A stretch of DNA of 32,755 nucleotides. Origin: a virus. A model generated the notes under the pieces. That model saw only the letters and a list, made by a program, of their open reading frames with translations, was not told the origin of the DNA and ran no database searches. The stretch spans positions 1 to 32,755 of IMG/VR virus record IMGVR_UViG_3300025870_000042; one strand, 5' to 3'. Both the position numbers and the translations under genes were made by a program. This document shows positions 6,734 through 31,127 of this stretch, piece by piece (position 1 is the stretch's first letter; every line of letters starts with the position of its first letter).

Positions 6734-7241
6734 TTATAGTCTAACTAGTCCTGCTGTCTGTGTGAATAATGATGGTGCTTTAAACTTTTATTATTTGACA
6801 AACAAGAAAAAGTGGATTGGTAAACAAAGTGATAATATTATTGGTTATGAACATAAAGAATGGAAAGACCCTATTGAAAGATTTGGTTACATATCAGATT
6901 TCGTATTCAATATTCTTGCTACACTCGGAACTCCAAAAATATTTATTGAAGGCTACTCTTACGGTTCAAAAGGTCAAGGACTTTTTCAAATCGCTGAGAA
7001 CTGTGGTATACTCAAATATAGAATACTTGAAAAAGGACTTACTTATGAAGCAGTTGTACCAAGTGTTGTTAAAAAAGGTGCTACAGGAAAAGGTAATGCT
7101 GATAAAGATATGATGTTAAATGAATTTATAAAACAAACTAAAATTGACTTAAAGAAGATATTTGATACAGATAAGGCAACCAATCCATTATCAGATATTG
7201 CAGATAGTTATTTTATACAAAAAGTAGGAAGCGAAAAGTGA
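6690..7241 (+). CDS. RuvC/RNase H-fold Holliday-junction resolvase-like endonuclease
   Basis: A 183-residue protein with the first strand and catalytic Asp of the RNase H fold (TIVGIDYSLTSPAVCV), an acidic FIEGYSYGSKGQG segment carrying the expected second acidic residue, and a C-terminal DIADSYFIQ segment supplying the last Asp. T4-like marine phages commonly carry such RuvC-like proteins, which resolve branched DNA before packaging. I chose ATG 6690; an upstream in-frame GTG at 6666 exists. The gene overlaps the zinc-ribbon gene at its start and the FkbM-like gene at its end (GTGA). Confidence 0.78.
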   Translation: MKKIIAKQRTIVGIDYSLTSPAVCVNNDGALNFYYLTNKKKWIGKQSDNIIGYEHKEWKDPIERFGYISDFVFNILATLGTPKIFIEGYSYGSKGQGLFQIAENCGILKYRILEKGLTYEAVVPSVVKKGATGKGNADKDMMLNEFIKQTKIDLKKIFDTDKATNPLSDIADSYFIQKVGSEK

Positions 7242-7930
7242 AATTAATTAAAACTTGGTGGTTACCTGATTGGGACACACATTACGATAATCACATAGTA
7301 GACCACTATGGTAATTTTGAATATCAAAAAGAACAAAGAGACTATTCTTTATCATTTGTTAAGAAATTAGGTTTAGCATTAGACATTGGTGGCAATATTG
7401 GTTTTTGGTCTAAAGACTTATCAAAAAAGTTTGAAAAGGTAGTTGCATTTGAACCACATCCAGAAAACATAGAATGTTATAAAAGAAATATGGAAAGTTT
7501 TAATAACTGGACATTAGAAGAGATAGCATTATCAAACAAACACCAGAAAGACGCCGTACTATTTCAAAGTCCTGATGAAAGTGGTAACGTAAGTCTTCTA
7601 GCTCACGGTGTACAGTATGGAAACTCTCAAAGAACATTAAAAGAATCAGCATTAAAAAAGTTAACAACAGATGTTAGAGTATTAGATGATTACGTAGATA
7701 AGTTTGACCGAAATGTTGATTTTATCAAAGTAGATTGTCAAGAACACGAAAAAGAAATTGTACTAGGTGGTTTAGAATTGATGTCAAAGAATAACGCAGT
7801 TATAGTGTTAGAATTACCATTGAGAAACGATAAAGAAAAAGAATATGCAAAAGATGTTGAAAATATTATGGCTTCAATTAAATACTTTCGTAGAGGCAAT
7901 TATAGGAAAGAAACAGTATTTACAAAATGA
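7238..7930 (+). CDS. FkbM-family SAM-dependent methyltransferase
   Basis: A 230-residue protein with the SAM-binding motif I LALDIGGNIGFWS, the acidic ribose-binding strand VVAFEPHPEN, and the FkbM-typical FIKVDCQEHEKEIVLGG followed by an E-L-P strand. Such enzymes usually O-methylate sugars or small molecules. The start is GTG 7238, which overlaps the upstream TGA (GTGA). It begins the glycosyl-modification island, so its likely substrate is a glycan or lipid-linked sugar made by the following enzymes; this is inference. Confidence 0.82.
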   Translation: MKLIKTWWLPDWDTHYDNHIVDHYGNFEYQKEQRDYSLSFVKKLGLALDIGGNIGFWSKDLSKKFEKVVAFEPHPENIECYKRNMESFNNWTLEEIALSNKHQKDAVLFQSPDESGNVSLLAHGVQYGNSQRTLKESALKKLTTDVRVLDDYVDKFDRNVDFIKVDCQEHEKEIVLGGLELMSKNNAVIVLELPLRNDKEKEYAKDVENIMASIKYFRRGNYRKETVFTK

Positions 7931-8643
7931 TTGGTGTAGTCACAACTTTAAACAAAAAGCTATATAAACAATATGGTCATAAGTTTTTTGAAACTTATAA
8001 CTGGCCATTTAACTTGATTGTATATAGTGAAGATATGTTAGATATACCACATACGAACTTTATACCTAAAAGTACGTTTGATGAGGTACCACAATGCGAA
8101 GAGTTTGTAAATAGAAACAAAGAAAGACCTGTTGCAGATACACCTGCTGGATATATTAATGATGGTGTTAGATTTTCTTATAAAGTATATGCTTATACAA
8201 ATGAGATTATTACTAACGAAGACTATGATGGTTTAATTTGTATAGACGCTGATAGTGTATTTTATAAAACTATTGATGAAGAATGGGTAAAGAAACACAT
8301 ACACAATAATGATATGATGATGAGTTATCTAGGTAGAGGAAACCATTATAGTGAATGTGGTTTTTTATACTTCAATATGAAACATCCAGATGTAATAAAA
8401 TATGCAGTTGAAATGCAGAATATGTACAATGAAGATTTAATATACAAAGAGAAAGAACAACACGATAGTTATATATGGGATTTAGTGAGAAAAAAATATG
8501 AAAAGAATGGTGTAAAGAATAAAGATATCGGTGATGGTAAAACAGGACACGTACAAGCAAGGTCTATATTAGGACCGGTGTATGACCACATAAAAGGTCC
8601 TAAAAGAAAAAAGTTAATGAAAAGTCCGGAGGCTAGAGTATGA
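7927..8643 (+). CDS. Glycosyltransferase-like protein (GT-A type)
   Basis: A 238-residue protein beginning with a strand (MIGVVTTLNKKLY) typical of nucleotide-sugar transferases. A D-A-D motif in GLICIDADSVF would bind the metal and nucleotide sugar, and a SECGFLYFN segment resembles the acceptor-side motif of GT8-like enzymes. It overlaps the methyltransferase stop by 4 nt (ATGA), as does its own end with the next gene. Sugar donor and acceptor are unknown. Confidence 0.65.
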   Translation: MIGVVTTLNKKLYKQYGHKFFETYNWPFNLIVYSEDMLDIPHTNFIPKSTFDEVPQCEEFVNRNKERPVADTPAGYINDGVRFSYKVYAYTNEIITNEDYDGLICIDADSVFYKTIDEEWVKKHIHNNDMMMSYLGRGNHYSECGFLYFNMKHPDVIKYAVEMQNMYNEDLIYKEKEQHDSYIWDLVRKKYEKNGVKNKDIGDGKTGHVQARSILGPVYDHIKGPKRKKLMKSPEARV

Positions 8644-9128
8644 TTTATAATACATATGTACAAGAAGAAAAGAATATCAAAGAAGTACCTAAAGAGTTAA
8701 TTGAAACTGCTGAAGTAATTGCAGAAAAACCTATTGATGGCAATTATGAAAAATATAGAGAAAAGTTTAGTTTTCATAAAGTATCAAATGAATTATCAGA
8801 ATGGTTACAACACGAATTTAGAACTACATTATTACCAGAAAAAGGTAAGTATTATTATTGGTGTATGAAAGATATGCCTTTATTTACAGACGCTGTAAAA
8901 GAAGAAGTTTTTTTCTATGCAGTTGATTTTGATAACCAGTTTAGATTTTGGTCACAATGGTTTGAAAATGAAAGAGTTGAACAAACACGTATAGTAGAAG
9001 ATAAAGAGGCTGAATTATGTAAGTTTAAATTTAAACCTGAACCTGGTAAATGGTACAGACTAAAGTTAGATGAAATACACGATTTAGAAACTAAAACTCC
9101 TGTATGTGGCATTATTTGTTATGATTAA
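8640..9128 (+). CDS. Hypothetical protein inside the glycosyltransferase island
   Basis: A 162-residue soluble protein of unrecognised family. It is rich in aromatic residues (KYYYWCMKDMP, FRFWSQWFENER), with alternating hydrophobic and charged residues suggestive of a mixed alpha/beta fold; no signal peptide or membrane segment is seen. It is translationally coupled at both ends (ATGA at the start, 8-nt overlap with the GT8-like gene at the end), so it is likely co-expressed with the modification enzymes. It could be a nucleotide-sugar or acceptor-modifying protein, but no motif supports this. Confidence 0.7.
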   Translation: MIYNTYVQEEKNIKEVPKELIETAEVIAEKPIDGNYEKYREKFSFHKVSNELSEWLQHEFRTTLLPEKGKYYYWCMKDMPLFTDAVKEEVFFYAVDFDNQFRFWSQWFENERVEQTRIVEDKEAELCKFKFKPEPGKWYRLKLDEIHDLETKTPVCGIICYD

Positions 9129-9786
9129 TGTTTTTATTGGTTATGATAGTAAAGAAAAGGTTGCTTTTAATGTACTTGCGTATAGTATATTAAAGAACAG
9201 CACTAGACCGGTATCAATCACACCGATTTATTTACCTAATATCAAAGACAACTTCACAAGAGAACGTAGTAATTTAGAATCAACTGAATTTAGTTTTAGT
9301 AGATTTATTGTACCACATCTAGCAAATTATAAAGGTTGGGCAGTTTTTATGGACTGTGACCAATTGATGACAGGTGATATTGCTGAACTATGGAGATTGC
9401 GTGATGAGAAGTATGCCTTACAGGTTTGTAAACACGACTATACACCAAGTACAGATAAAAAGTTTTTAGGTCAAATACAAACAAAGTATGAAAAAAAGAA
9501 TTGGTCTAGTTTTATGTTAATGAATTGTGATAAGTGTACAGCTTTGTCGCCAGATTATGTTAACACAGCAACAGGTTTACAATTGCACCAGTTTAAGTGG
9601 TTAGAAAATGAAAAATTGATTGGCGATTTACCATTAGAATGGAACTGGTTAGCAGGTGAATATCAATATAAGAAAGATGTAAAAAATATACACTATACAG
9701 AGGGTGGACCTTGGTTTGAAGATTACAAAGATTGTGATTACTCAAAAGAATGGTTTGAATATTATAATGAAAGTTGTAAGTTGTAG
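9121..9786 (+). CDS. GT8-like glycosyltransferase
   Basis: A 221-residue protein. The N-terminal strand INVFIGYDSKEKVAF followed by SILKNS matches the nucleotide-binding start of GT8/LPS-type glycosyltransferases, and AVFMDCDQLMTGDI contains the D-x-D metal motif. A conserved HQFKWL and LEWNWLAGEY region lies toward the C terminus. I chose ATG 9121, overlapping the upstream stop by 8 nt, over the upstream GTG 9106. The donor sugar cannot be told from sequence. Confidence 0.78.
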   Translation: MINVFIGYDSKEKVAFNVLAYSILKNSTRPVSITPIYLPNIKDNFTRERSNLESTEFSFSRFIVPHLANYKGWAVFMDCDQLMTGDIAELWRLRDEKYALQVCKHDYTPSTDKKFLGQIQTKYEKKNWSSFMLMNCDKCTALSPDYVNTATGLQLHQFKWLENEKLIGDLPLEWNWLAGEYQYKKDVKNIHYTEGGPWFEDYKDCDYSKEWFEYYNESCKL

Positions 9787-10607
9787 TGATTGAAGGATTT
9801 TGTACAGGCTCTGGTGCTAAAGATAGATTTGTTGTTGCTTTCTCACAAATAGTACATAGAAACGGTAGAGAAAGAATACCACCATTTGAGGAGGGTTTTT
9901 GGCCTACGTTTAATTGGGAAAATTTTACAACTAATCCTATTGCAGTAGTTGGTACATTAAGAGGTTCAGAAAGAGTTATATGGCAATGTCAGAAAAGAAC
10001 TCACGAATTTTATTATATGGACCACGCTTACTTTTACGCTACAAGAGATTATAGGCCAGGTCCTTATGGTCAATTATACAGAGTTGTAAAGAATCAATTA
10101 CAACTCAATAAGTTAGTTGAGTTAACCAATCAGGACAAAAAGAGAATAGAAAAATATAAACCAATAACATTTAATAGTTGGAATTTTGGTACTTATATTC
10201 TAGTTTGTCCACCAACTAAAGCAGTATGTAGAATGTATCATACAACCGAAGAAAAGTGGTTAAGTGATACACTTGAAACATTAAAAAAATATACAGACAG
10301 AGAAATTAGAATTAGAAATAAAGGTGATAAAACATCTTTACAAGAACAATTAAAAAATTGTTGGGCAATGGTTACTATGCAATCAACAGCTGCCATTGAG
10401 GCAGTATTATCTGGTGTACCAGTATTTTGTGATGAAGTATCACAATCAAATGTTGTTGGTGAAAATGATTTATCTAAAATAGAAAGACCATATTATCCTG
10501 ATAAAGAACTTATAGATAAATGGATAGATAGTTTATTGAGTTGTCAGTTTACACTAGAAGAAATAAAAAATGGTGTCGCATATGAGACAGTTAAGAGGTT
10601 ACAATGA
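9786..10607 (+). CDS. Tandem paralogue 1: GT-B/capsule-enzyme-like protein
   Basis: A 273-residue protein starting with GTG at 9786 on the last base of the preceding TAG. The C-terminal half has the pattern VTMQSTAAIEAVLSGVPVFC, reminiscent of the nucleotide-sugar-binding end of GT-B folds and of capsule (KpsC/KpsS-like) enzymes, where Ser/Thr and Glu contact the donor. It ends with a W-(x)n-QFTLEEIKNGVAYE segment that recurs in the next two genes. These shared features mark three divergent tandem copies. The N-terminal region contains a Y-x-D-HAYFYATRDYRPG stretch that might hold acceptor or catalytic residues. Function is inferred only from the fold-like pattern. Confidence 0.62.
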   Translation: MIEGFCTGSGAKDRFVVAFSQIVHRNGRERIPPFEEGFWPTFNWENFTTNPIAVVGTLRGSERVIWQCQKRTHEFYYMDHAYFYATRDYRPGPYGQLYRVVKNQLQLNKLVELTNQDKKRIEKYKPITFNSWNFGTYILVCPPTKAVCRMYHTTEEKWLSDTLETLKKYTDREIRIRNKGDKTSLQEQLKNCWAMVTMQSTAAIEAVLSGVPVFCDEVSQSNVVGENDLSKIERPYYPDKELIDKWIDSLLSCQFTLEEIKNGVAYETVKRLQ

Positions 10608-11599
10608 TAGTTGGTTTTTGGGGTGCATTTAGAGAAGGAGATTTCTTTAATTTTCCTACACACAATGATTTTAAATTGGCAAAGTTTGAAGACCGTAAAG
10701 TCCTTGAACACGCAAACGCATATGTTACCACAGGTGTTAGAGGTGTTTTTAAAGACTATAAAGACCAATATGATTATATTGCACAAACTAAAAAACCTGT
10801 TATAGTATTTGAGGGTGCCACATTTAGAAGAAATATAAAAGTTGGTGACGATAACTACTATTATAGAATTGGTTTAAATGACTACACATATAATAATGGT
10901 ATATTTAAGAATAAAAACTCGCCGTCTGATAGGTGGGATATGATACAGAAAGAACAAGATATAGAAATTAAACCTTGGAGAAGTGAGGGTAAGTATATAC
11001 TACTATGTTTACAAAATCCTACTGATACAAGTTTGAATGACTTATATACAGCCGATATGCAAGATAAATTAATAGTACACACTAAAGCTAGAGGCACACA
11101 ATGGAATTATATTAACTATCTATATATGGTAATGAAAAAGATTTCTTCTTTAACTAACGAACCTATTGTAGTAAGATTTCATCCTAGATTTTTAGAAAAA
11201 TATGGTAATATATCACCAGATGGTGGTCAAAAGGGTGGTTTCTTTGCTAGATTTAGAGAAGCAGGAATTAGAAACAAAATCATATATAGTAAAAACTATG
11301 ATAACTTTAATGAGACAAATGGTGGTAGTGGATTTCAGAAAGATTTAGATGGCGCTAGAGTTGTTGTATCATATTCAAGTAATGCATTAGTAGAAAGTGT
11401 ATGTGAGGGTATACCAACGGTTGCCTTATCAAATACATCACACGCTTGGCCAGTAAGTTACCACACGCTTGACATTATAGGTGAAAGTAATATACAATGT
11501 AAGTTTGATAGAAAACAATGGTTATACGATTGTGCTTACACACAATGGAAACAAGAAGAAATTAATAGTGGAATAGTACATAGGAGATTATTAGGATGA
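10604..11599 (+). CDS. Tandem paralogue 2: GT-B/capsule-enzyme-like protein
   Basis: A 331-residue protein overlapping both neighbours by 4 nt (ATGA). It has a clear IVVRFHPRFLEKYG segment, the R-x-H-P motif typical of CDP-glycerol/capsule-type transferases, and a C-terminal VVVSYSSNALVESVCEGIPT pattern equivalent to that in the flanking paralogues. The end (W-x-Q-E-EINSGIVHRRL) matches the shared tail. It is longer than its siblings and probably keeps the most complete N-terminal Rossmann-like domain. The substrate is unknown. Confidence 0.65.
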   Translation: MIVGFWGAFREGDFFNFPTHNDFKLAKFEDRKVLEHANAYVTTGVRGVFKDYKDQYDYIAQTKKPVIVFEGATFRRNIKVGDDNYYYRIGLNDYTYNNGIFKNKNSPSDRWDMIQKEQDIEIKPWRSEGKYILLCLQNPTDTSLNDLYTADMQDKLIVHTKARGTQWNYINYLYMVMKKISSLTNEPIVVRFHPRFLEKYGNISPDGGQKGGFFARFREAGIRNKIIYSKNYDNFNETNGGSGFQKDLDGARVVVSYSSNALVESVCEGIPTVALSNTSHAWPVSYHTLDIIGESNIQCKFDRKQWLYDCAYTQWKQEEINSGIVHRRLLG

Positions 11600-12462
11600 T
11601 TATAACACACAAGATGAGTTGGGATAAATGTTTATCTCATAAGATTTGGCCAGCAATTGAAAAAGGTTGGCAAGACGCAGACCACGAGATACACTTCTTT
11701 TGGGGATTAGGTGGTAAGAATACAGAATTAATTAGAGAGTGTGTACACCTTGGTAAAGAATGGTGGTACGTAGATGTGGGTTATTTAAATGTTCCTTTTA
11801 CAAGATATCCAGAACCAATCGTAGATTGGGATAGATTCTATATTAGAATTGCAAAGGGTAATTTACATACTATCAGAGGTCAAGTTGGCGATGGTAAAAG
11901 ACTATCACAATTAGAACACGAAGGTATTGACTGCCAATTCAAAGGTTGGGATACAGGTCAGATGACACATTTTTTATTAGCACCATCATCACCTACGGTA
12001 ACTTTTCATATTAATGGTTGTTCGGTAGAAAAGTGGCTTGAAATTGCAACAACACAAATTACCAATGCAGTAAGAGATACGGAATTTGAAAATCTACCAA
12101 TTAAGATTAGACAGAAACCAAGACCTGGTAATCAATGGTGGAATACTGATATTAGAACTGAACTACAAGGTTGTCAAGCATTAATAACTAATATGTCTCT
12201 ATCAGGTATTGACGCTATTTTAAATAGAACACCTGTATTTGCACACAAAAGAAACATTGTAAGTTTTATTGCAGGTCAGCATATTAGTAAAGTAGTTAAA
12301 CCTTTGAGACCAGGACATAAGACAGTAAATGAATGGTTGAAAATGGTAGTTGATAATCAGTTTAAATTAAAAGAGATTGCTGATGGTACAGCTTATGAAA
12401 TGTTAATGGCACAACCAAACAATAGTTTGGATCCAAGTAAATTACAGGAACAAATGAAATAA
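11596..12462 (+). CDS. Tandem paralogue 3: GT-B/capsule-enzyme-like protein
   Basis: A 288-residue protein coupled to both neighbours (ATGA upstream, TAATG downstream). Its C-terminal half contains ALITNMSLSGIDAILNRTPVF and then W-L-K-M-V-V-DNQFKLKEIADGTAYE, aligning by eye with paralogues 1 and 2. The N-terminal half begins with a short strand and HKMSWDK, and has many aromatic residues. The acidic residue of the S-x-x-E pattern is replaced by Asp (GIDA), so donor contacts may differ. Function unknown beyond likely sugar or polymer transfer. Confidence 0.6.
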   Translation: MIITHKMSWDKCLSHKIWPAIEKGWQDADHEIHFFWGLGGKNTELIRECVHLGKEWWYVDVGYLNVPFTRYPEPIVDWDRFYIRIAKGNLHTIRGQVGDGKRLSQLEHEGIDCQFKGWDTGQMTHFLLAPSSPTVTFHINGCSVEKWLEIATTQITNAVRDTEFENLPIKIRQKPRPGNQWWNTDIRTELQGCQALITNMSLSGIDAILNRTPVFAHKRNIVSFIAGQHISKVVKPLRPGHKTVNEWLKMVVDNQFKLKEIADGTAYEMLMAQPNNSLDPSKLQEQMK

Positions 12463-13082
12463 TGTCACAAGTAGGTGAATTTGATATGTTTACGACACCC
12501 ATAAAGGTGTCGAAATCTGATTTAGATAATGGTTTAATATCTAACTATGTTTTAGATTTTTGTAAAGATAATGAGGGTAGATTAAACTCACAAAATCCTA
12601 AAGGTCGTTTAGTATCTAATGAGGGTGGTTTTCAATCAAAAGATATTTCGTTTGAACACCATATGAGATTAAAACCTTTGTATGCATTTTTACAAGAAGA
12701 AGCTAATGAGTTTGCATCCAGTTTAGGTTTACCTAGAGTAAAATTAGATAATTTATGGTTTAACGTAAATGGGTATAAAGATTATAACCAAGACCATAGA
12801 CATCCAGGTTGTATATTTTCAGGCGTATATTATCTACAAACACCAGAAAAATGTGGTGACATAGTATTTACCAGTCCAGCTTCTCACGATTTAGAGGCAT
12901 ATTGGGACGAACACATAAAAAATAAAAACAACCACCCTAGAACTAATATACATTGTACTTGTAAGGCAGAGGCTGGTCTTATGTATCTATTTCCTAGTTT
13001 CTTAACTCACGGTGTATTACCAAACTTAAATGAAACAGAGAAAAGAATATCTGTAGCATTTAATTTCAAAAAGATGTCGTAA
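12462..13082 (+). CDS. 2-oxoglutarate/Fe(II)-dependent oxygenase
   Basis: A 206-residue protein with the double-stranded beta-helix signatures seen in T4-like marine phage oxygenases: a QDHRHPGCIFSGVYYL core supplying the first metal ligands, and a distal LFPSFLTHGVLPN with the second His, followed by KRISVAFNF carrying the Arg that binds 2-oxoglutarate. Such enzymes hydroxylate proteins, nucleobases or small molecules. Here it lies inside the glycosyltransferase island, so hydroxylation of an acceptor before sugar attachment is possible, but this is inference. One-base overlaps occur at both ends. Confidence 0.82.
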   Translation: MSQVGEFDMFTTPIKVSKSDLDNGLISNYVLDFCKDNEGRLNSQNPKGRLVSNEGGFQSKDISFEHHMRLKPLYAFLQEEANEFASSLGLPRVKLDNLWFNVNGYKDYNQDHRHPGCIFSGVYYLQTPEKCGDIVFTSPASHDLEAYWDEHIKNKNNHPRTNIHCTCKAEAGLMYLFPSFLTHGVLPNLNETEKRISVAFNFKKMS

Positions 13083-13753
13083 TGAATTTCGTATGCGTTT
13101 ATTATGGAAACAAATACAAACCACAATACGTACAGAATTTGTACAATATGGTCAACCGACATCTTACGGTAGACCACAAATTTATTTGCTTTACGGACAA
13201 CACTTCATTACATAGAGTAGTACAAGGTGATATAGAGTATAGAAAGTTTCCACTTGATGACGAACAAGGTTGGTGGAACAAACTACAACTATTTCATCCT
13301 GATAGTGGTCTAGTTGGTGAAAATTTATATATGGACCTGGATGTGGTCATCCTAAAAAATATTGACGAAATGGCAAAGTTTGGTAAAGTGGACACTTTTG
13401 GTGCAATCCACGATTTTACAGGCTTGGATGGCATAAACTCATCTATAATGAAATTCAATAATACTACAATGACACCAGCTGTATGGGACAGATACTATGA
13501 AGACAGACCAAGATGGCGTAAACATCAAGGTGACCAGAATGTGACATATGAGTTTATGAAAGAACATACAGAATTACAATATATGCCGAATCAATGGTCA
13601 TTTTCATACAAATGGTTTAATAGAAAAGAACCTAGATTCAGTAAGACTGATTGGACATTTGAAAAGTGTAGCGAATCGTTGGTGGCCGTGTTTCACGGAC
13701 AACCAAATCCACACGAATCAGACATTGAATGGGTAGTGGACAACTGGAAATAG
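13082..13753 (+). CDS. Glycosyltransferase-like protein (GT-A type)
   Basis: A 223-residue protein starting with NFVCVYYGNKYKP, a typical first strand of GT-A enzymes, then GWWNKLQLF and ENLYMDLDVVIL with the D-x-D motif. A late FHGQPNPHE segment resembles the His-Gly-x-x-K/P-W end motif of GT8-like families. It is the last gene of the modification island; after its stop there is a 112-nt intergenic stretch with early promoters. Donor and acceptor are unknown. Confidence 0.75.
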   Translation: MNFVCVYYGNKYKPQYVQNLYNMVNRHLTVDHKFICFTDNTSLHRVVQGDIEYRKFPLDDEQGWWNKLQLFHPDSGLVGENLYMDLDVVILKNIDEMAKFGKVDTFGAIHDFTGLDGINSSIMKFNNTTMTPAVWDRYYEDRPRWRKHQGDQNVTYEFMKEHTELQYMPNQWSFSYKWFNRKEPRFSKTDWTFEKCSESLVAVFHGQPNPHESDIEWVVDNWK

Positions 13754-19977: not shown

Positions 19978-20241
19978 ATGGCTAGAACAAAGCTAACTAA
20001 AACTGAAAAGATTAGAAATCTTTTTTCAAAAGGTTCAGACGTTTCTTGGAAACAATTAAGAAACACTTATGACCTTAAATCACCAGCTGCAATGGTTGGT
20101 AAATTAAGAAACGAAGGAATGATGATTTATGAAAATAGGTCTTCAAAAGGCGTTTCATACAGAGTAGGAACACCATCAAAAGCTGTTATCGCAGCTGGTA
20201 TTACTGCTGTATTCGGTAAGCAAGTAGCTTACTCAGCATAA
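19978..20241 (+). CDS. Small winged-helix/HTH-like DNA-binding protein
   Basis: An 87-residue basic protein: residues 6-50 look like a helix-turn-helix (IRNLFSKGSDVSWKQLRNTY, then SPAAMVGKLRNEG), followed by a beta wing-like YENRSSKGVSYRV segment, and an Ala/Gly-rich C-terminal tail. A strong AAAGGAGATAC site precedes ATG 19978. An in-frame ATG at 19936, with its own TAGGAG site, would add 14 residues, so two forms may be made. It stands alone before a strong GC hairpin, suggesting abundant, independently expressed protein. The exact function (transcription factor or nucleoid-like protein) is inferred. Confidence 0.75.
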   Translation: MARTKLTKTEKIRNLFSKGSDVSWKQLRNTYDLKSPAAMVGKLRNEGMMIYENRSSKGVSYRVGTPSKAVIAAGITAVFGKQVAYSA

Positions 20242-20247
20242 ATTTGA

Positions 20248-20275
20248 GGAAGGGCGGCTTTCGGGTCGCCCTTTC
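20248..20275 (+). terminator. Strong GC hairpin, probable terminator
   Basis: The arms GGAAGGGCGGC and GTCGCCCTTTC pair over 11 bp (with two G-U pairs) around a TTTCGG loop, 7 nt after the stop of the DNA-binding protein. No long T tract follows, so it may be a weak terminator or a processing/stability hairpin. Confidence 0.6.
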
Positions 20276-20299
20276 CAATTAATTAACAAAAAGGTTTTT

Positions 20300-20494
20300 A
20301 TGTCAAGTGTTGATGATAGAGATAATGATAAAAGTTTTGAGAATGAACAATCTACGGTTACAATACCATTAAGAGAATACGATAAATTAAAAGAACAAAC
20401 AAATTATATTACAGACCCTAGTCTTATATCAGTTATAGACAAATTAGAGGAACTTGTAAGAGCATTGAGAAAACACATTGTCAGAAAGTATTAA
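20300..20494 (+). CDS. Hypothetical protein, 64 aa
   Basis: A 64-residue charged protein with an AAAAAGG leader before the ATG. The first 20 residues are acidic and probably disordered; the rest contains STVTIPLREYDKLKEQ and a C-terminal amphipathic helix rich in Leu and Arg. It overlaps the next gene. No recognised family. Confidence 0.65.
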   Translation: MSSVDDRDNDKSFENEQSTVTIPLREYDKLKEQTNYITDPSLISVIDKLEELVRALRKHIVRKY

Positions 20495-27694: not shown

Positions 27695-28018
27695 ATGCAA
27701 AAATTAATACTAGTTTTGTTATTTACCATAATAACATTTACAGCAAAGGCACAAATGGCACCAATGAGTTTACCTGCTCAATGTGGACCAAGTGAAGTTG
27801 TAAATGAATATGTAATAAAATTTGGTTTTATGGTTGAATCTATGTCTATGGCAAAAGAAGGTGCTCAAAAAGAAGCACCTGTAGCGTATTATGTTTATAC
27901 GTTTGTAAACGGAGATAGAACTGAACATTTGATTGTACTTACTAGTCCATCAGGACAAGAAAGTTGTATAGTATCACACTCCTTTGATTTGGTTTTAACA
28001 CCAAAAGAGGGTGCATAA
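27695..28018 (+). CDS. Secreted protein, 107 aa
   Basis: Residues 1-19 form a signal peptide (KLILVLLFTIITFTAKAQ) with A-K-A cleavage. The mature protein has two cysteines (A-Q-C-G-P and E-S-C-I-V) likely to form a disulfide, and a beta-rich C-terminal half (YYVYTFVNGDRTEHLIVL). A strong GGGAGG site precedes the ATG. It directly precedes the tmRNA gene and may be co-transcribed with it. Family unknown. Confidence 0.72.
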   Translation: MQKLILVLLFTIITFTAKAQMAPMSLPAQCGPSEVVNEYVIKFGFMVESMSMAKEGAQKEAPVAYYVYTFVNGDRTEHLIVLTSPSGQESCIVSHSFDLVLTPKEGA

Positions 28019-28019
28019 G

Positions 28020-28280
28020 AATTAGTCGTTGACGACAAATATGGTAGACAGACTGGACTCCGGGGCAGTTCCGGACAGCTCCACCATAAACACATTTATA
28101 GAGTGTGCTTATGATGGGGCTGATATAGGATTCGACAGATGTTGAGAAATTTGTAAGAGATTAATAGGTGGCAACCTTAAATGCTAATTAAACGCAAACG
28201 ATAATAACTTTGCATTAGCAGCTTAATCACTGCTTTGAGTTTTGTGGATTGTACTTCGAAACAGAAACAATCCACGCTTT
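28020..28280 (+). ncRNA. ssrA: Circularly permuted two-piece tmRNA (tag ANDNNFALAA)
   Basis: The gene order is acceptor piece, spacer, coding piece, as in alphaproteobacterial tmRNA. Acceptor piece: GGAC then a T-arm TCCGG (28059-28063), 7-nt loop, CCGGA (28071-28075), then CAGCTCC (28076-28082) and encoded ACCA (28083-28086). A 29-nt spacer (28087-28115) with a short hairpin follows. The coding piece starts GGGGCTG at 28116, which pairs with CAGCTCC over 7 bp. The tag ORF at 28194-28226 reads ANDNNFALAA and stops at TAA. The stop lies in the loop of AGCAG/CTGCT (28217-28221, 28230-28234), as in helix P5. ATTTGT (28149-28154) can pair with ACAAAT (28035-28040) as part of P2, and AGGT/ACCT with a GCA-TGC loop contact gives a PK1-like pseudoknot. 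A 9-bp hairpin (28244-28252 with 28267-28275) lies near the 3' end. The outer ends are approximate. Its product would rescue stalled ribosomes and tag proteins for degradation. Confidence 0.93.
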
Positions 28281-28306
28281 ACATTTAATAGAATAAGTGA
28301 TATATT
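28278..28306 (+). promoter_or_regulatory. Sigma70-like promoter of gp33, overlapping the tmRNA 3' end
   Basis: TTTACA at 28278-28283 (preceded by GC), 17-nt spacer, TATATT at 28301-28306. The gp33-like ATG 28314 begins 7 nt after the -10. The -35 adjoins the terminal hairpin of the tmRNA. Confidence 0.65.
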
Positions 28307-28313
28307 ATATAAT

Positions 28314-28532
28314 ATGAACTCAAAAGAATTTACTCAAATAATTAATAACATAGTCAAAGAGAAAAGACCTATTTCTTATCTGGATGCCGTAGTATGGTAT
28401 TGTGAAGAAAATAAGATTGAAATAGAAACTACTTCAAGACTAATATCAAAATCTCTCAAAGAACGAATCAAAGCAGAGGCTTTAAATGCCAATATGCTGA
28501 AGATTAAGAAAGGTGGTACTCTACCTGTATGA
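28314..28532 (+). CDS. Late-transcription co-activator (T4 gp33-like)
   Basis: A 72-residue protein whose ISYLDAVVWYCEENKIEIE segment followed by LISKSLKERIKAEALNANML matches the gp33 family as found in T4-like cyanophages. In T4, gp33 bridges RNA polymerase and the sliding clamp to activate late transcription with gp55. It is shorter than T4 gp33 (112 aa), as in marine relatives. The order gp33-gp59-gp32 downstream supports it. The ATG lies about 2 nt after the predicted +1, so the transcript may be nearly leaderless. Confidence 0.75.
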   Translation: MNSKEFTQIINNIVKEKRPISYLDAVVWYCEENKIEIETTSRLISKSLKERIKAEALNANMLKIKKGGTLPV

Positions 28533-30581: not shown

Positions 30582-31127
30582 ATGTACGAAGGATTTAAAA
30601 TACCAAAAGTCACGTTTAGAGTAAGAGAGGGTGATGAGGTTGAAACAGATGGTGGTTGTGCTATTGGTGGTCAATGGACAAATTTAACAACAGATAATAT
30701 CTTTAAAAAGAAGAGAGTTGTTTTGTTCAGTTTACCTGGTGCATTTACACCTACTTGTTCGTCTGAGCAACTACCAAGCTTTGAAGAACATTATGACAGA
30801 ATCACGAAGTTTGCCATTGACGAAGTTTATTGTATTTCAGTAAATGATTCGTTTGTGATGAACGCTTGGTCACAACATATGGGAATTGAAAAAGTCAAAA
30901 TGATACCAGATGGTTCAGGAAACTTTACTAGATTTATGGGTATGTTGATTGGTAAAAACCATTTAGGTTTTGGCAATAGAAGTTGGAGATATATGGCTGT
31001 TATTAATAATGGTGTTGTCGAGAAGTTTTGGCAAGAACCAGGAATTAATAACGAGGGTAAAGATGATGACCCCTATGTAGAGTCAACACCAGAGAATGTA
31101 ATGGAATATTTGCGAAAGAGTGAGTAA
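30582..31127 (+). CDS. Peroxiredoxin (Prx5-like)
   Basis: A 181-residue thioredoxin-fold peroxidase with the peroxidatic site PGAFTPTCSSEQLP, followed by YCISVNDSFVMNAW and a C-terminal domain ending LRKSE. This is the Prx5 family layout. It would detoxify hydrogen or alkyl peroxides, plausible for a phage of sunlit seawater, using glutathione/glutaredoxin as reductant in many Prx5 enzymes. It follows a small gene in the 30395 operon. Confidence 0.9.
   Translation: MYEGFKIPKVTFRVREGDEVETDGGCAIGGQWTNLTTDNIFKKKRVVLFSLPGAFTPTCSSEQLPSFEEHYDRITKFAIDEVYCISVNDSFVMNAWSQHMGIEKVKMIPDGSGNFTRFMGMLIGKNHLGFGNRSWRYMAVINNGVVEKFWQEPGINNEGKDDDPYVESTPENVMEYLRKSE

Follow-up and report, generated by a model that had tools for sequence, protein, structure and literature searches.

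A circularly permuted two-piece tmRNA gene upstream of gp33 in a fragment of a T4-like phage related to SAR11 phages

Does the short segment ahead of the gp33 gene in this viral DNA encode a tmRNA and, if so, where did a phage obtain it and what would it use it for? The window (the whole stretch analysed) is a linear virus record of 32,755 bases with T4-like genes, among them homologues of gp33, gp59 and gp32. Its ribonucleotide reductase has its closest matches in two Pelagibacter phages, with 82% DNA identity to that of Mosig and 76% to that of HTVC008M. Gene content and closest matches mark the window as part of the genome of a T4-like ocean phage near these two SAR11 phages, in agreement with a sequence-only reading of the locus, which had assigned it to a phage of the SAR11-phage kind. 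Elsewhere in the window, predicted sugar- or methyl-transferase-like and oxygenase-like open reading frames (ORFs), recognized by eye, occupy positions 7238–13753, with the ribonucleotide reductase block on one side and small genes of unknown function on the other. A peroxiredoxin-like gene (30582–31127; phrog_2281, E = 3e-67) adjoins gp32; the peroxiredoxin gene of HTVC008M adjoins its gp33.

Anatomy and structure of the gene

Positions 28021–28280 on the + strand are a circularly permuted two-piece tmRNA gene (Table 1). The Rfam model tmRNA_permuted (RF04321) matches it over model positions 1–213 of 213 with 112.2 bits (E = 2e-21; cut-off 47). The alpha_tmRNA model (RF01849), which the sequence-only reading had named as a check, gives 80.2 bits (E = 5e-24), above its own cut-off, and beta_tmRNA (RF01850) gives 80.1 bits, slightly below its own cut-off of 84. 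All of the parts claimed in that reading are present in the sequence: the two acceptor halves, the encoded CCA, the T-arm, the tag frame for ANDNNFALAA and the hairpin with the stop codon, in permuted order. The folding z-score of the gene is −5.7, and none of 200 shuffles was as stable. The second program named there, ARAGORN, fared worse, reporting no tmRNA gene in the whole window; on short snippets it detected 36 of 47 distinct gp33-adjacent tmRNA genes. Because three covariance models and the covariation described below agree, we regard its blank result as a miss by the program.

Table 1 Features of the tmRNA locus and its neighbours, in window coordinates
Feature	Position	Strand	Basis
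Upstream neighbour, 107-aa ORF	27695..28018	+	Homologues at equivalent place in relatives
Acceptor piece (P2 3′ strands, T-arm, acceptor 3′ strand, CCA)	28021..28086	+	RF04321 and RF01850 alignments
P2 pairs	28021-28026/28160-28165, 28035-28040/28149-28154, 28047-28050/28140-28143, 28053-28055/28136-28138	+	Compensatory changes
T-arm, stem UCCGG/CCGGA, loop GGCAGUU	28059..28075	+	3 of 5 stem pairs double-changed among relatives
Acceptor 3′ strand CAGCTCC	28076-28082	+	Pairs with 28116-28122
Discriminator A	28083	+	Sequence
Encoded CCA	28084-28086	+	Sequence
Spacer (ITS), 29 nt, complementary arms TAAACACA..TGTGCTTA	28087..28115	+	Sequence, fold
Coding piece, 3′ end approximate	28116..28280	+	RF01850 match to 28281; conservation to CGCTTTAC in relatives
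Acceptor 5′ strand GGGGCUG	28116..28122	+	7 pairs with 28076-28082
Pseudoknot PK1	28166..28185	+	Two stems, compensatory changes
PK1 stem 1, AGGU/ACCU	28166-28169/28174-28177	+	2 double-changed pairs, 100% of cells paired
PK1 stem 2, GGCA/UGCU	28170-28173/28182-28185	+	2 double-changed pairs, 91% paired
Tag frame ANDNNFALAA*, resume codon GCA 28194	28194..28226	+	Sequence; tags conserved in relatives
Stop-codon hairpin AGCAG 28217-28221/CTGCT 28230-28234, TAA in loop	28217..28234	+	Sequence
3′ hairpin GUGGAUUGU/ACAAUCCAC enclosing AACAGAA	28244..28275	+	Fold
Promoter-like site TTTACA-17-TATATT, TG ahead, upstream of gp33	28278..28306	+	10 of 12 consensus positions
gp33-like late-transcription coactivator, downstream neighbour	28314..28532	+	phrog_254, E 4e-23
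gp59-like helicase loader, flank for phage tree	28672..29283	+	phrog_269, E 1e-58

The 5′ limit, at about 28021, abuts the stop codon of the upstream 107-aa ORF, which has no PHROG match. The third acceptor pair, G28118·U28080, is of the G3·U70 type, the acceptor pair recognized by alanyl-tRNA synthetase (AlaRS), and all 25 relatives examined keep its U–G combination. The resume codon lies 8 nt past PK1 and opens the tag codons GCA AAC GAT AAT AAC TTT GCA TTA GCA GCT TAA. Downstream, AACAGAA, an alpha-type motif also found in the alpha_tmRNA consensus, is invariant in the alignment of relatives.

For covariation analysis, 25 related genes were aligned and the two-piece structure was assigned to them by hand. 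Across these, 95% of cells are paired and 20 of the 44 helix pairs are double-changed; 0 of 500 shuffles match the observed pairing or covariation score. When partners were slid by 1–3 columns, pairing dropped to 34–48% and double-changed pairs to 0–5, against which the observed 20 are hard to explain in any other way. As the structure was derived partly from the same sequences, the cells-paired figure is biased in its favour. The P2 helices linking both pieces are 97–100% paired, with double changes, and the T-stem is 100% paired. The stop-codon hairpin is paired in 76% of cells overall and is different in one of two alleles, the G-type allele described below. The phage tmRNA gene is apparently structurally intact.

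Distribution, alleles and ancestry

A tmRNA lies at most 450 nt upstream of gp33 in 65 gp33-bearing loci (the window, Mosig and viral contigs), some of which overlap on the same contig. The tmRNA pattern had itself been used to retrieve many of these loci, which biases this share; among loci fetched by gp59 alone, 28 of 80 carry one. The annotated SsrA genes of Mosig and Melnitz occupy the equivalent place upstream of gp33. HTVC008M has a permuted tmRNA with the tag ANFNEYALAA two short genes upstream of gp33 (L218:5162-5371; NC_020484, about 145161-145370), which is missing from the annotation of its record. The view that tmRNA genes are rare in phages is outdated for the sea: our pattern scans of viral contigs gave many matches, and a 2022 study of unique tmRNA structures from phages counted 53 of the two-piece form, with marine or aquatic samples as the source of 50 (PMC9004378). 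More distant relatives (L151-L201) have no tmRNA at the gp33 site, so it is dispensable in some phages. A strong hairpin, GAAGGGCGGCTTTCGGGTCGCCCTTTC, for which no Rfam family exceeds threshold, lies at window positions 20240–20290, upstream of an ORF at 20300–20494; a homologue of this ORF and a similar GC-rich hairpin lie directly upstream of gp33 in L159 and L193, which have no tmRNA there.

The window copy (as the identical L073), Mosig and HTVC008M belong to a pelagimyophage clade (support 100/99) with tmRNAs near gp33. Two alleles are separated with 100/100 support. The window type has the acceptor GGGGCTG, a spacer ending in ATGAT and tags resembling A[ND][ND]N[NT]FALAA; the Mosig type, or G allele, has GGGGGTG, a spacer ending in ATG and tags mostly starting with G (GNSNFALAA and kin). 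PK1 and the tag, ending in ALAA or AIAA, are retained in both. Trees built from the proteins to either side of the gene group the window with Mosig-type phages (support 98–99 and 97) and Mosig with window-type phages. The window tmRNA is 85–92% identical to genes of phages with only 43–74% identity in gp33, and 68–75% identical to genes of phages with gp33 mostly 75–89% identical. The two alleles cut across phage relationships, which is a new observation. The conflict is firm for Mosig (approximately unbiased (AU) test, p < 1e-4). The trees and identities are suggestive of a swap in the phage of the window as well, but the test allows its tmRNA to group with the G allele (AU p 0.218, and 0.518 in a second sample), and the window may instead hold an unswapped ancestral allele (p 0.218).

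Where does this phage lineage come from? The sequence-only reading had the phage taking its gene from a SAR11-type host. As the host set we used the order of genome G361, with genomes of 1.0–1.5 Mb; we infer the SAR11 label from the 16S region of G361, which has 1–2 mismatches to three sequences that we take to be SAR11 probes. An alpha-type tmRNA is encoded in 72 of 78 of these genomes (189–244 bits with RF01849), with spacers of 4–17 nt; ANDELALAA and ANNKFALAA are examples of their tags, and all sampled tags end in A[LI]AA. In a tmRNA tree rooted on beta-proteobacterial genes, with cyanobacterial genes outside the sample, alphaproteobacterial host tmRNAs form a single clade (100/99.8) that contains no phage copy. 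Grouping of the window's phage group with the SAR11 clade is rejected (AU p = 5e-5; 0.0175 with another sample), so that the window gene does not group with the ssrA of SAR11 hosts. The tests allow all viral copies to form a single clade (p 0.446), and also allow a grouping of all viral copies with SAR11 against other alphas (p 0.30). The near-equal alpha- and beta-model scores sit beside an alpha-like 3′ motif and viral copies placed outside the alphaproteobacterial hosts in this tree. A BLAST search of 398 Pseudomonadota genomes with the gene gave short, weak matches only, and the tag-region pattern had 15 matches in genome contigs, none identified as SAR11. One of these matches (L214:1990-2350) reads as a one-piece tmRNA in a Burkholderiales metagenome-assembled genome; the start of its tag, ANDKNFALAA, is similar, apparently by convergence.

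On these trees, a recent capture from SAR11 is unlikely, which corrects the idea of recent uptake from the host, and the window tmRNA is best placed as part of an old phage lineage of its own. All viral copies may share an ancient, stem-SAR11 origin (p 0.30), and the whole viral lineage may have a very old alphaproteobacterial origin.

Protein genes in the spacers of relatives

The spacer of the window, with no ORF inside it, is the short, empty form of a site that is filled in other phages. In seven near relatives (L130, L136, L141, L144, L145, L147 and L149) it measures 131–132 nt and contains a 32-aa ORF. This ORF (for example, MFKWFFNLFTYKHQGDLSKHRLHTLNYEDLCK), with a Shine-Dalgarno sequence, also lies between the tmRNA pieces in L219-L224, L226 and L227, and has a pN/pS of 0.15–0.39 among spacer variants. 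A search with its protein motif found nine contigs, eight of them with the motif in a tmRNA spacer and one with a free-standing homologue (L225:3406-3522) that follows a regA-like gene.

Two scans for long spacers yielded at least 107 distinct viral tmRNA genes with spacers of about 100–200 nt (L320, L323-L497). Among the matches listed, 93 of 107 contain an ORF of 20 codons or more whose start lies within the first 45 nt; in 35 cases this start is at offset 19. At least five spacer families (VTYLLLRF, MIEKF, DLCK, Melnitz and MNWDW) have in-frame pN/pS values of 0.02–0.31, with higher values in other frames where computable, and a sixth, MDRELW, behaves as coding at 0.41; each value is limited by small sample size and by common descent of the sequences, but the agreement between families is clear. 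The long LDNIF.. frame of some spacers was rejected as coding (pN/pS 1.57); MDRELW.. is a different frame of those spacers. Marine phages, Melnitz among them (spacer-gene peptide MFKWLSKTRLVVITRDYF...), carry several unrelated small-protein families at this one site in the spacer. Ten spacer proteins compared with Pfam and PHROGs gave no match over a curated cut-off; one resembles a PHROG of unknown function (phrog_16066, E = 3e-8). The selection pattern makes it well supported that these nested frames code for protein. In tmRNA spacers, a 2025 study notes the presence of a tRNA gene and of a repeat, and no protein genes (PMC11915505), and a search of the open-access literature gave no report of protein genes at this site.

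The layout invites the guess that nested gene and tmRNA are coupled. We tentatively propose, as a doubtful model, that the tmRNA gene of marine phages is a module with a spacer slot for small protein genes, the expression of which is coupled to tmRNA processing. Cutting of the precursor into tmRNA would destroy the nested mRNA; where the frame runs on to the UAG of the D-arm, cutting would yield a non-stop mRNA that could be tagged by the tmRNA itself, an arrangement that we liken to ArfA. Among the matches listed, 34 frames end 13 nt into the coding piece, mostly at this UAG; the overlap alone proves nothing, because the UAG is fixed by the tmRNA and ends any frame in register.

Function and relation to known systems

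Given the observed gene structure, covariation, position by gp33, conserved tags and presence of SmpB in the host, we consider the locus to be, with a probability of about 0.85, a working permuted tmRNA gene of a T4-like phage near the SAR11 phages that rescues ribosomes in infection. Transcription, processing, charging, rescue and phage benefit are inferred from anatomy and conservation. A single transcript would be processed into the acceptor piece and the coding piece, by RNase P cleaving before G28116 and a 3′ processing enzyme cutting after A28086, and the acceptor stem, P2 and tertiary contacts would keep the pieces joined. Host AlaRS would charge the molecule via G3·U70. SmpB, encoded in 39 of 40 SAR11 genomes and in none of 6 phage records, several of them fragments, would be provided by the host and would deliver the tmRNA to ribosomes stalled on broken mRNA. 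The ribosome would append alanine plus ANDNNFALAA and terminate at TAA, and host proteases would degrade the product. The tag end matches that of the sampled SAR11 tags and therefore the same proteases should take tagged products, as anticipated in the sequence-only reading. Its suggestion that the phage gene replaces a host tmRNA lost during takeover finds no support, SAR11 genomes encoding their own. Because host tmRNA is already present, a need for the phage copy is unproven; it may supplement or replace the host's at a stage when host genes are no longer transcribed and mRNA is being cleaved, and keeping ribosomes free during infection is its most likely use.

Two other functions are improbable by comparison. 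The phage RNA could act as a decoy that draws SmpB, AlaRS or ribosomes away from host tmRNA and so blocks host rescue or tagging, much as the tmRNA of mycobacteriophage DS6A, which lacks a coding sequence, inhibits host tmRNA when expressed in E. coli (PMC11915505). However, the tag frame, resume region, PK1 and ALAA end, which a decoy would not need, are intact here and conserved in both alleles; given that the tag has been retained, we give this small weight. Nor do we expect the role in selective tagging put forward in PMC9004378, which cites an early promoter. The tag end is of the same kind as the host's, giving no sign of selectivity, and no early promoter for the window gene stands out beyond chance: the region has 7 promoter-like sites against a shuffle mean of 6.3. 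Sequence resembling the site upstream of gp33 can be seen by eye in relatives. Finally, imprecise excision can carry ssrA pieces into phages (PMC9004378), but a host fragment carried along passively, or a transduced gene in decay, is a very improbable reading of a gene that is full-length, covarying, conserved with its tag in many phages and apart from the host clades.

The 2022 description places ssrA under glutamine-riboswitch control in Melnitz and Mosig (PMC9004378); the window has no such riboswitch. In Melnitz, the riboswitch (RF01739, L320:5597-5645) lies just downstream of the tmRNA model match and ahead of gp33, and in Mosig (MT647606, 92197-92250) it is about 19 kb from ssrA. These coordinates disagree with the published wording, and because of them the riboswitch looks like a leader of downstream genes rather than a control of ssrA. 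Mosig also has a manA RNA (RF01745, 64 bits; L002:11408-11615) upstream of a rubrerythrin gene.

The locus is a clear added case of relatives of SAR11 phages, which infect a clade dominant in the ocean, bringing their own ribosome-rescue RNA. The conflict between alleles and phages, the unannotated tmRNA of HTVC008M and the spacer protein genes are new and lie mostly outside the window; as the nested genes include that of cultured Melnitz, a link between tmRNA processing and phage gene expression is directly testable.

The window gene is a further member of a kind already described, in 2022, from Mosig and Melnitz (PMC9004378). It matches tmRNA_permuted over its full length and every tested feature falls inside that family, published in 2025 with a merged model and 79 bacteriophage tmRNA sequences (PMC11915505). 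Pelagibacter phage Mosig EXVC030M (MT647606) shares the permuted order, the place upstream of gp33 and the ALAA end, with 69% DNA identity over the gene, and differs in its acceptor and in its tag, GEDNFALAA. Methylophilales phage Melnitz likewise has a permuted gene upstream of gp33 with a tag ending in ALAA, but its spacer is 142 nt long and carries an ORF. Mycobacteriophage tmRNAs, also phage-borne, belong to other phages and hosts and are set apart by their description. The ssrA of SAR11 hosts has the same permuted order, P1, P2, PK1, 3′ AACAGAA and A[LI]AA tag end, whereas its far higher alpha-model scores, shorter spacers and separate clade distinguish it from the phage gene.
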